The notes under the pieces are model-generated. The model was not told the origin of the DNA and searched no databases. It saw nothing but the letters and a program-made list of their open reading frames with translations. Both the position numbers and the translations under genes were made by a program. Below, piece by piece: positions 17,218-63,388 of a DNA stretch of 64,000 nucleotides. Position 1 is the first letter of the stretch; each line of letters starts with the position of its first letter. The stretch covers positions 62,001 through 126,000 of the forward strand of contig JACPMX010000011.1 in NCBI GenBank assembly GCA_016185755.1, written 5' to 3'. The stretch comes from Candidatus Woesearchaeota archaeon (lineage in GTDB: Archaea; Nanobdellota; Nanobdellia; Woesearchaeales; GW2011-AR4).

Positions 17218-18963
17218 TTATTTAATTTGTTGTCTAGCTTCATACATTATCACTAATTTATCTAGGTTAATTGCATTTGCAAATGCTCTTGCTGCGCTTC
17301 TTACAATGTCCCTATCATAACCTTCACCCCATATATAACGTCCGCTTACATCTTGCAACAGAATTTCAGTCCTAGCGAATGACTGTATGCCCTCAGCGCC
17401 AATTGTGTTCCTGTTATGTTGAGAATAGGTTTTTAGCACCATGTCCATGCCAACTGCTTGTTTCATGGCATCAACAATTGCTTCTATCTGGCCCATTCCT
17501 TGTCCGACATATTCTGTCACGGGTCCCTCATCAACTCGTAAAGCTACACTTATTTTTATCGGATCGTCTCTATGTTGAGCTTTAATATAAGAATGATCTA
17601 CATATTCAATAGGTAGTTTAACTTCAGTGTGAAATCCTTCTTCACCCATCAAAATCTTTAATTCCCGATGAGTTACTGTTCTTTGGTCTTTTGCAAAACC
17701 AACAAATTTATCATAAACTCTTGCGCTTTCATCCTGATTCCATGCTCCTGTTGGTGTTTTTTGGAGTCCATAACCAAGCAAATTTAAATGATATTCAAGA
17801 GCATTAATCCCAGATCTTCTTCCAAGAGGAAATTTGGAACCTCCAGCACCAATTTCATCACCAGTAACACCTTCGTAAACATGGGCATTCCCTAGTTTAA
17901 GCCCTTTTATTTGCCCTGCCTGGTGTATTCCTGCTTCATGTGATCTTGTATTTGAACCAACAACGGGTTGAGTTCTGCCTGGATGAAATCCGGTAAATCC
18001 TGCGACTTCAACGCTCGCTGGAAATATCTTTCTTGTATGTATTCCGGTTTTTACTCCATAAAGCCCTCTTGAATCATGTGCAATATTCATTGCTACTTGC
18101 TCTAGTGAAGTGTTACCTGCCCTTTCACCTATTCCATTAACAGTGCATTCAAATTGTCTTACACCTTCTTCTATGCTTGCCAAGCTTGAAGCGACTGCTA
18201 ATCCATGGTCATTGTGAATATGTGCACTCATAAGGAGGTGTTCTATTCCTGGGACATTTTTCTTTAATTCCATTATATAATCTGCATATATTCTCGGATG
18301 AACAACCACCCCCACTGTGTCTGGAATGTTAAAAGTAAATCCAACTCGACCCACGTATGGTCTTATGGCAACCATTACATGATTATAGATTTCAATTAAT
18401 AAATCAATGGGTGTCCTCATCGCATCTTCTGCTGAAACTTCAACCATCCCATATTTACCTGCTTTTAAAAATTTTTCAGCAGCCCGCGCTGCGCTTTCCG
18501 CCATCATGTACTTTAAATCTTCAGGCTTTTTTCCAGGAAATTTTGCCATTCTGTGTTCATCGGATGTCGAAACAAAAGTGTGAATACCGGGCAATCGTGC
18601 TGATTGCACAGCTTCCCATGCAGCATCTACATCTGCCGGAAGAGCCCTGGCCAAGCTATAAATCAATATATCTCTACCGCTTGATGGGGTGTCTTCATGC
18701 TGATTAAGTGCATCAATCACTTTATGAGTTGCATCAATCTCATTAGGATCCGATATAGCAAAACTAACTTCCATTGCATCAACTCCCATTGCTTCAATAA
18801 ATTTCGACAGATGTGCTTTCTCCAGAGGTCCCTGAGCGGCGCCCGGAGTCTGCTCTCCATCTCGCAACGTCGTATCAAAAATCAATAATCTCCTGATATC
18901 TGGTTCTCCAAAGATTTTTGGATTTATGTATCCGGCATACGGCGAATTTATTGTTGATTGCAT
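17218..18963 (-). CDS. leuA: 2-isopropylmalate synthase (alpha-IPMS)
   Basis: A 581-residue enzyme: LLIFDTTLRDGEQTPGAA (metal and substrate Arg-Asp), FNIPDTVGVVVHP, the HIHNDHG metal motif, CTVNGIGERAGN, then a linker and a C-terminal regulatory-type domain ending GYDRDIVRSAARAFANAINL. It condenses 2-oxoisovalerate and acetyl-CoA in the first committed step of leucine synthesis; homocitrate or citramalate synthases are close relatives, so substrate choice is not proved. No leuBCD is in the window. A GAGG ribosome site precedes ATG 18963. Upstream is a leucine-rich leader ORF with its own promoter, which strongly suggests leucine control. Confidence 0.88.
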   Translation of the reverse strand: MQSTINSPYAGYINPKIFGEPDIRRLLIFDTTLRDGEQTPGAAQGPLEKAHLSKFIEAMGVDAMEVSFAISDPNEIDATHKVIDALNQHEDTPSSGRDILIYSLARALPADVDAAWEAVQSARLPGIHTFVSTSDEHRMAKFPGKKPEDLKYMMAESAARAAEKFLKAGKYGMVEVSAEDAMRTPIDLLIEIYNHVMVAIRPYVGRVGFTFNIPDTVGVVVHPRIYADYIMELKKNVPGIEHLLMSAHIHNDHGLAVASSLASIEEGVRQFECTVNGIGERAGNTSLEQVAMNIAHDSRGLYGVKTGIHTRKIFPASVEVAGFTGFHPGRTQPVVGSNTRSHEAGIHQAGQIKGLKLGNAHVYEGVTGDEIGAGGSKFPLGRRSGINALEYHLNLLGYGLQKTPTGAWNQDESARVYDKFVGFAKDQRTVTHRELKILMGEEGFHTEVKLPIEYVDHSYIKAQHRDDPIKISVALRVDEGPVTEYVGQGMGQIEAIVDAMKQAVGMDMVLKTYSQHNRNTIGAEGIQSFARTEILLQDVSGRYIWGEGYDRDIVRSAARAFANAINLDKLVIMYEARQQIK

Positions 18964-19053
18964 TTTATTTCCTCGTTGTTTGTTTTCCCTAACACACTCT
19001 AGAATTTTGAACGATGCGATGCCCCTTATAGAATATGTCAGATTTTGTGGGGC
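18964..19053 (-). promoter_or_regulatory. leuA leader segment with hairpin and sequestrable ribosome site
   Basis: Between the leader-ORF stop and leuA ATG there is a GCCCC/GGGGC stem (19048-19052 with 19021-19025). The leuA ribosome region (minus-strand CAACGAGG, 18971-18978) is complementary, with one bulged G, to CCTGTTG inside the leader's Leu codons (19069-19075). No U-rich terminator is visible, which favours translational over transcriptional attenuation. Confidence 0.45.
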
Positions 19054-19128
19054 TTAAAGCAGCAGAAGCAACAGGTTTAGAGCTGACAAAAGCAAGACAG
19101 AATTTTTTAATGATGTTTTGCCAGCCAT
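19054..19128 (-). CDS. Leucine-rich leader peptide of leuA
   Basis: A 24-codon ORF (start MAGKTSLKNSV) has 11 leucines and finishes with six consecutive Leu codons (CTG TTG CTT CTG CTG CTT) directly before TAA. It lies on the leuA strand, ends 90 bp before leuA, and its ATG is about 33 bp from a TTTAAATA box, so it would be the first ORF on a leaderless leuA transcript. This is the layout of bacterial amino-acid leader peptides such as leuL. A single-span membrane peptide is the alternative reading. I know of no described archaeal example. Confidence 0.6.
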   Translation of the reverse strand: MAGKTSLKNSVLLLSALNLLLLLL

Positions 19129-19156
19129 TTTATTTTTTATTTGAAAATGCAGCTTG

Positions 19157-19164
19157 TATTTAAA
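19157..19164 (-). promoter_or_regulatory. TATA box of the leuA transcript
   Basis: TTTAAATA on the minus strand, centred about 33 bp before the leader-peptide ATG. It matches the box seen before smc (24551-24558) and the ORF at 62669. A start site near 19134 is predicted. Confidence 0.6.
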
Positions 19165-19229
19165 TGTTTTGAGAATTTTTGGTTTTACAGGCGCGCAGGT
19201 ATTTCCATTGACCTGGGAAGAAAGCAGTA

Positions 19230-19616
19230 TTATGCTGACCTAATTGCTGGCTCAACTTTCAGAACAGCGTTAACATAGGCATCGCTATAGGCTTCTAATA
19301 TTCTTATTGGGTCGTCAAATGAAGCATGCCCCTCATGCCGTGAGCCGTTAGAAGAAACAACTACTGAAACTGTGCCTTTCCATTCATGCGGCTCTCTACT
19401 CATTGAATGATTTTCAATTTTATAGTCAAAGATTTCCTCTAAAGCAGCAAAAACAAAACGTTTTGGATCCTGCAAATACTCTCTTTTAAGGTTGATGCCG
19501 GGCCTGATTTCTGCACTTTTAGCTGTTCCATCAACTATGAATTCCAATTTGAATATAGGACCATTATCGGGTCCGCCCGTATCAAGAAGCATGCTCTTTC
19601 TTTCAATACTTCGCAT
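19230..19616 (-). CDS. Stand-alone IPMS regulatory-domain-like protein
   Basis: A 128-residue protein. Its C-terminal half (residues about 60-125: a helix, then GTVSVVVSSNGSRHEGHA, then DDPIRILEAYSDAYVNAVLKV) follows the pattern of the 2-isopropylmalate synthase LeuA dimer/regulatory domain and can be aligned with the C-terminus of LeuA encoded just downstream (GEGYDRDIVRSAARAFANAIN). No catalytic barrel is present. It has its own TATA box (around 19640) and ATG at 19616. It may modulate LeuA or bind a ligand; this is inferred from resemblance and location only. Confidence 0.55.
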   Translation of the reverse strand: MRSIERKSMLLDTGGPDNGPIFKLEFIVDGTAKSAEIRPGINLKREYLQDPKRFVFAALEEIFDYKIENHSMSREPHEWKGTVSVVVSSNGSRHEGHASFDDPIRILEAYSDAYVNAVLKVEPAIRSA

Positions 19617-62630: not shown

Positions 62631-62668
62631 AAAGCTTTAAATATAACCAACTCAAAATAAACATAAAT

Positions 62669-62737
62669 ATGGCACAAAGCAATAAATTAACTTTAAGTAT
62701 TCTGATTTTGCTAGTGCTGATTATCGTGGTGCTGTAA
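62669..62737 (+). CDS. 22-residue single-span membrane peptide
   Basis: It starts MAQSNKLTLSIL, and the remaining ten residues are Leu, Val and Ile to the stop. A TTTAAATA box at 62636-62643 lies about 29 bp before its ATG, the same spacing as smc and leuA. It is therefore a plausible leaderless membrane microprotein between the thermosome and a hypothetical gene. No other evidence of translation exists. Confidence 0.5.
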   Translation: MAQSNKLTLSILILLVLIIVVL

Positions 62738-62788
62738 AGCCCACCTTTGATTTTTAAAATTCTATAAAACGATTAAAGGTGAAAAAAC

Positions 62789-63388
62789 ATGACTACCCCT
62801 AATGCTACGGAAACTGGAAATGCAGAGCTTTCTGATATAACAAATGCTGCCTTTAAGGCCATGAAGCAAACAAATGGCTTGCACGTCATAGATATGCCTA
62901 GAAATGGAAATGGGCATGCTGCATACCCTATGACAACCCAGACCCATGCTGATAAAGATAATTTAGCTAAGGCACAAAAGCAAAAATATAATGGCCTTAC
63001 AGAGGATGGGTGGAGATTTGTACAGAAAGTCGGGGCACCTCACTTTAACAGGCGAAGAAGAGAGATGGCCGGGTATAAAAAAATAGGGACTGCCGTTCGA
63101 ATAAACTACTCTGCCCATTCAATTGATATTCCAGTACCGGAAGGAAACCTGAAGCTTGTGGTTTTCAGGCCTTCAGACAGAAACGAATTGGTTGGAACAT
63201 TCACAAAAATTAATCCAAAATATGCCGGGCTATATGGGGGTTACCAGAGCATTGGAGACGCGGTGGCGAGCAATGATTTTAGAATATTCAGGACCTACAG
63301 GGTGCCCGACGGAGTGGAAAGACTAACCCTTCCTATGCCAACCATGTATGATGGATTGGGGCGCCAAGTGAATTATAGGACAAAATGA
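62789..63388 (+). CDS. Hypothetical protein
   Basis: A 199-residue protein with a Thr/Asn/Ala-rich N-terminus, a Lys/Arg-rich middle (FNRRRREMAGYKKIG) and beta strands toward the C-terminus (LKLVVFRPSD, LTLPMPTMYDG). No signal peptide. Not recognised. A GGTGA sequence eight bases before the ATG at 62789 fits a ribosome site. Confidence 0.6.
   Translation: MTTPNATETGNAELSDITNAAFKAMKQTNGLHVIDMPRNGNGHAAYPMTTQTHADKDNLAKAQKQKYNGLTEDGWRFVQKVGAPHFNRRRREMAGYKKIGTAVRINYSAHSIDIPVPEGNLKLVVFRPSDRNELVGTFTKINPKYAGLYGGYQSIGDAVASNDFRIFRTYRVPDGVERLTLPMPTMYDGLGRQVNYRTK

Follow-up and report, generated by a model that had tools for sequence, protein, structure and literature searches.

A leucine-codon leader peptide and a conserved post-stop RNA element upstream of leuA point to a candidate ribosome-controlled switch in DPANN-type archaea

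Leader-peptide attenuation is a textbook bacterial mechanism. In a 64,000-nucleotide stretch of a Candidatus Woesearchaeota contig (JACPMX010000011.1, positions 62,001 to 126,000; here referred to as “the window”), a short leucine-rich open reading frame (ORF) lies between a promoter and a leuA-like gene, which raises the question of whether archaea also use leader peptides to control the genes that follow and, if so, through which RNA structure and at which step of expression. An earlier note on this DNA proposed such control and knew of no described archaeal amino-acid leader peptide; our literature search, limited to open-licence papers, agrees in having found none. The locus, in the direction of transcription, contains the following.

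19157 to 19164, minus strand: TATA box TTTAAATA, the leader promoter (read directly)
19054 to 19128, minus strand: leader peptide ORF, MAGKTSLKNSVLLLSALNLLLLLL followed by the stop (conserved in relatives; synonymous-change test)
19057 to 19074, minus strand: run of six Leu codons up to the stop (CTG TTG CTT CTG CTG CTT)
18971 to 18974, minus strand: GAGG, the likely Shine-Dalgarno (SD) element of leuA (read directly)
17218 to 18963, minus strand: leuA-like gene, 581 aa, with an HMGL-like catalytic domain and a LeuA_dimer allosteric domain

The first T of the TATA box (19164 to 19157) stands 36 nt upstream of the leader ATG, so the leader mRNA would be leaderless or carry a 5′ untranslated region of only a few nucleotides. 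As the earlier note had described, and as can be read directly in the sequence, the ORF behind this box (ATG at 19128 to 19126, stop TAA at 19056 to 19054) has 24 sense codons, 11 of them for Leu, with six Leu codons immediately before the stop; leuA starts at 18963, 90 nt past the leader stop. The ORF is not a product of chance: of 622 ATG-initiated ORFs of 12 to 40 aa in the window, this one and the ORF at 62669 to 62737, described below, are the only two with such a branched-chain tail, which none of 20 Markov-1 random windows contained. The leuA product matches 2-isopropylmalate synthase families at scores below the NCBIfam equivalog cut-offs, which we attribute to its divergence, and retains the RDGEQ, HIHND, and GIGERAGN motifs (read from the sequence); a GTDB pattern search for its close relatives returned none. 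Because a search of the assembly for a 16S rRNA gene found none, the archaeal assignment rests on the archaeal-type AlaRS (TIGR03683), the thermosome, Nre, and the promoters. A 128-aa ORF just upstream of the leuA promoter (19230 to 19616, minus strand) carries a separate TATA-like box; judged by eye, its C-terminus looks like a LeuA regulatory domain, and the ORF had no Pfam match and no useful AlphaFold/Foldseek match (low confidence).

We sought leuA/HMGL genes throughout the order, oriented their upstream regions, and listed the short ORFs. Within the order, more than 20 families have leaders before leuA or cimA genes, and two more leaders precede 2-isopropylmalate-synthase-like genes outside the order, in the same class. 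In a set of loci selected because their tails are rich in L, I, or V, whichever of the three predominated, the dominant leader residue was L before leuA (32/32), I before cimA (21/21), and V before stand-alone ilvB (5/5), with a Fisher value of 3e-15 for leuA versus cimA; the comparison that the earlier note proposed, for a conserved Leu-run ORF in relatives, came out strongly positive. A tree of 91 proteins gave a similar picture: nearly all leuA-clade genes with readable upstream DNA have a Leu-run or Leu/Val-run leader (one, L048, is doubtful), and Ile-run leaders precede a sister clade and most citramalate synthase genes, of which three of three tested scored above the TIGR00977 cut-off. 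No leader was recognised for about one in four cimA-type genes, and some 30 related HMGL genes of other clades have no convincing one.

The last regulatory residue lies 0 to 2 codons from the stop across 76 loci, and 73 distinct ORFs with LIV tails occurred among 781 TATA-preceded short ORFs (1.89 Mb of DNA, both strands), against six tail flags for all other amino acids together. No convincing leader was found upstream of trpE and hisG. Short ORFs ending in WFIWD and WCFWE before the stop, perhaps Trp leaders, lie upstream of two chorismate-binding genes (L152 in G465 and L157 in G074, respectively). The nearest relatives of the cimA genes are bacterial (46 to 61%), and these genes look bacterial in origin; since an Ile-run ORF precedes only 2 of 80 bacterial cimA genes, the leader was probably not simply inherited along with the gene. 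A bacterial cimA from a Deltaproteobacteria MAG (L247) has an Ile-run upstream ORF, MIRNIVSIIRPIIIIIIQDTSG followed by the stop.

Two signatures support translation of the leader from a near-leaderless mRNA. A TATA-like box (at least 7/8) lies 28 to 39 nt before the leader ATG at 73 of 76 loci, where the choice of leader start among internal ATGs depended in part on which had the best TATA match, compared with 135 of 1,140 control ATGs; its first T is at a median of 31 nt upstream, a spacing that implies a leaderless or near-leaderless mRNA. Among 18 leaders of the family, synonymous changes make up 52% of the codon differences when these are read in frame; the two shifted frames give 8% and 4%, and the mean after column permutation is 38% (maximum, 41%).

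Conservation extends into the RNA that follows the leader stop, where the window locus has the elements listed here, all on the minus strand.

19049 to 19053, minus strand: 5′ arm of helix S1, GCCCC, from the first base after the stop onward
19029 to 19042, minus strand: 5′ arm of helix S2, UCUGACAUAUUCUA, within the S1 loop (shuffle p = 0.003, the minimum of the test)
19021 to 19025, minus strand: 3′ arm of S1, GGGGC
19010 to 19016, minus strand: CAUCGUU, a copy of the recurrent unpaired CAUYGUU motif
18988 to 19001, minus strand: 3′ arm of S2, UAGAGUGUGUUAGG, forming 14 bp with the S2 5′ arm

S1 starts 0 to 10 nt after the leader stop across loci, 10 nt being the limit of the search. Of 58 loci, 37 had an S1 (Fisher, 3e-33) and 21 an S2 (7e-12) that was significantly stronger than in dinucleotide shuffles. 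In 30 distinct members of the family, aligned over S1 and S2, paired cells amount to 92.6%. Covariation in these members, from an alignment fitted to S2 with S1 outside the model, comprised both-side changes in 7 of 15 pairs (39 cells), against 0 to 4 pairs and 0 to 8 cells in slid controls, in which pairing was lost. S1 and S2 occupy equivalent positions in other families but with quite different sequences, and the S2 5′ arm starts at +10 to +13 from the stop in most pseudoknot members. Both helices covary and, as they cross, they would form an H-type pseudoknot or, in its place, an S2 hairpin. We infer the pseudoknot; S1 and the 14-bp S2 may clash sterically, however, in which case a switch between alternative hairpins is possible. 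Minimum free energy (MFE) folding, which is blind to pseudoknots, keeps S2 at the window locus, and the MFE z-scores for that locus alone are weak (−1.65). The motif CATTGT occurs in 16 of 73 intergenic regions against 1.4 expected; as CAUUGUU or CAUCGUU it is found unpaired in leuA/cimA elements of several families, after S1 and at +22 to +42 from the leader stop. A covariance-model scan against Rfam (T-box, riboswitch, and leader models) gave no match above the gathering score. In one locus (L112, G004:C74), the leader end and S1 region are tandemly duplicated before leuA, which may be real or an assembly artefact.

The earlier note had placed the regulatory pairing elsewhere, between CCTGTTG inside the Leu codons and CAACGAGG at the leuA ribosome site. 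This complementarity is present, and it appears in the MFE fold of the leader plus intergenic region; it is no stronger than chance, with p values of 0.41 and 0.43 against shuffled SD regions, a Fisher value of 0.47 over 55 loci, and no enrichment in a larger locus set. We therefore rejected the Leu-codon/SD stem as a conserved RNA element; the helices that are conserved are S1 and S2, after the leader stop. Antiterminator pairing between leader segments and the S2 3′ arm was likewise not significant.

The window contains a second unit of this kind (62636 to 63388), downstream of the thermosome gene.

62636 to 62643, plus strand: TATA box TTTAAATA of the second leader
62669 to 62737, plus strand: second branched-chain leader peptide, MAQSNKLTLSILILLVLIIVVL followed by the stop
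62742 to 62748, plus strand: CACCUUU, 5′ arm of the post-stop hairpin
62775 to 62781, plus strand: AAAGGUG, 3′ arm of the same hairpin, holding the GGTG Shine-Dalgarno element of the next gene
62789 to 63388, plus strand: gene for a 199-aa protein, family unassigned, behind the second leader

Here, the CACCUUU/AAAGGUG hairpin masks the SD of the 199-aa gene. The SD is also hidden by the S1 3′ arm in L091 and by the S2 3′ arm in L036, where an S2-type pair, UAUCCUCG/UGAGGAUA, lies over it. S2 of the window locus ends 24 nt before the leuA ATG and leaves the SD uncovered, as in most members of the family of the window’s genome, where it ends about 21 to 33 nt before the start codon. U-tracts of at least 6 nt occur in 5 of 73 intergenic regions against 2.7 expected, and the window locus has none, hence no terminator hairpin with a U-tract before leuA. 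Since the SD is hidden in several members and U-tracts are not clearly enriched, action at the level of translation is probable; the masked SDs of the second window leader, L091, and L036 further suggest that starvation would be the ON state.

Sequence comparison establishes the leader, its translation signature, the match between leader residue and gene, the promoter, and the covariation of S1 and S2. Taken together, these make it likely that the element is a ribosome-controlled RNA switch, a codon-specific leader-peptide attenuator in DPANN-type archaea, that probably acts on translation initiation. The (near-)leaderless mRNA would begin with the short ORF, whose last codons form the Leu run up to the stop. 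With ample charged Leu-tRNA, the leader would be read quickly and the ribosome would depart, allowing the post-stop RNA to fold; S1 would form beside the stop, and the next gene would be closed by pairing of the S1 loop with the S2 3′ arm, which lies close to where that gene begins. When Leu-tRNA is scarce, the ribosome would pause on the final Leu codons with its leading edge over the S1 5′ arm, blocking the closed fold and opening the gene. The waiting ribosome would cover the S1 5′ arm and not the S2 5′ arm, whose start at +10 to +13 would fall just past the expected ribosome edge. A stalled ribosome would in this way decide the structure adopted by S1 and S2, starvation would be the ON state, and sister genes would use the same device with Ile codons (cimA) or Val codons (ilvB). 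The earlier proposal that a leucine leader peptide governs expression of the gene after it is accordingly supported by the conserved arrangement in relatives, with translational control as the favoured output.

The main competing explanation keeps the same leader and RNA and places their action in transcription, with factor-dependent archaeal termination (e.g., by aCPSF1/FttA) occurring unless the ribosome stalls. We regard it as possible although unlikely. Classical leuL-type systems work on transcription, the leader lies near the 5′ end, where coupling could occur, and the RNA leaves the SD uncovered in the family of the window’s genome; on the other side stand the paucity of U-tracts (given above) and the several members in which the fold hides the SD itself. 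It is improbable that the RNA is instead the target of a regulatory protein, as has been proposed for the actinobacterial LEU element, with the leader secondary. The unpaired CAUYGUU motif and an AUAUUC arm conserved within the family would suit a protein target, but leaders specific for different amino acids share the same RNA, their codons evolve synonymously, and the run adjoins S1, all of which argues for the ribosome as the sensor.

The remaining explanations concern the ORF and its stop. The strongly hydrophobic tail, together with some N-terminal residues that are conserved within the family, could reflect a functional small membrane or signal-like peptide that stands before leuA by accident; this is very improbable, because the tail residue changes among L, I, and V according to which gene lies downstream, the run extends to the stop, with covarying RNA after it, and the survey of TATA-preceded ORFs flagged so few tails of other amino acids. 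Pseudoknots after stop codons are known readthrough signals, and the window leader and leuA share one frame, with 30 open codons between them and an open frame of 611 aa. However, leader and gene share a frame in only 24 of 72 loci, the proportion expected by chance, and in 5 of these the frame is also open; we therefore rejected a leader-LeuA fusion made by stop-codon readthrough, to which we assign scarcely any likelihood. Short ORFs are common, but the conservation across more than 20 families and the empty random windows make the probability of a chance ORF negligible.

The attenuator interpretation of the leader leaves the question of what it controls, and here the earlier reading fares less well: control of leuA by a leader peptide is supported, whereas leucine biosynthesis as its output is doubtful. 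The window’s genome (94% complete; G000) has leuA and ilvB, and neither there nor in 29 other family genomes did we find LeuC/aconitase. The leuA gene thus appears to be an orphan in this genome, where leucine biosynthesis as the output is uncertain. Of 36 family genomes searched with a covariance model of the element, 26 gave matches, a few of them marginal. In many family genomes without leuA, the element lies between a Leu-run leader and the gene for a small protein, which suggests that the leader-switch unit outlived the biosynthetic enzyme. A protein scan identified the LeuA regulatory domain (PF08502, LeuA_dimer) in three leader-associated small proteins, and a genome search added a fourth match (G008). 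Such stand-alone LeuA_dimer proteins lie behind a Leu leader and pseudoknot in the same genus (L299 in G017, L311 in G018, L322 in G015, and L323/L338 in G008), and no full leuA was found in these four genomes; other genomes of the genus encode similar leader-associated small proteins without a Pfam match. Reading frames antisense to alaS lie behind several of the small-protein units, which suggests that these occupy the same locus as in the window. In G008 (contig C67), two leader-pseudoknot-small-gene units, L310 and L323, occur in tandem about 600 nt apart. In L317 (G012), an Ile-run leader, MVAFSRRSAIIISIVAIIIIII followed by the stop, and a similar post-stop element precede the gene for a 129-aa protein of unassigned family.

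A leader in front of stand-alone LeuA domains and small proteins implies that the output is not simply leucine synthesis. We give even odds to the broader proposal that a family of Leu, Ile, and Val codon-specific leaders with a post-stop pseudoknot has, where a genome lacks the leucine pathway, come to control stand-alone LeuA regulatory domains and other small proteins, forming an amino-acid-sensing regulon uncoupled from biosynthesis. The leader-associated LeuA regulatory domains suggest a new leucine-responsive protein. The archaeal case combines a promoter and a covarying RNA with cognate matches for Leu, Ile, and Val, and it occurs in archaea with small genomes and little-known regulation; it opens the questions of whether ribosomes in archaea use leaders to sense aminoacyl-tRNA and whether this mechanism had an independent origin.

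In general kind, the element is a leader-peptide attenuator. Like the bacterial leuL, ilvL/ivbL-type, and actinobacterial ilvB leaders, it combines a short ORF, a run of cognate Leu, Ile, or Val codons, and an alternative RNA structure before a biosynthetic gene. Unlike the bacterial branched-chain attenuators, the archaeal leaders have an archaeal promoter and a near-leaderless mRNA, lack a consistent U-tract terminator, have a pseudoknot-type fold, and are dedicated each to its own gene with one dominant amino acid. In translational attenuators such as ermC (cited in PMC10219788), a stalled leader ribosome reshapes the mRNA and frees the ribosome site of the next gene. The archaeal leaders would act alike in freeing that site; the ermC signal is a drug-induced arrest of the nascent chain, whereas the archaeal signal would be a shortage of aminoacyl-tRNA at the codon run. 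Among described systems, the actinobacterial LEU element upstream of leuA comes nearest; it has a Leu-run leader, a conserved pseudoknot for which an alternative fold is possible, and a base stem between the Leu codons and the leuA Shine-Dalgarno box (Seliverstov et al. 2005, PMC1262725). The archaeal system shares the Leu-run leader before leuA and has covarying crossing helices, S1 and S2, that may form simultaneously. It differs in that its loci have no conserved Leu-codon/SD base stem (p of about 0.4 for the window locus itself) and no Rfam match, in having Ile and Val versions, and in belonging to a different domain of life.
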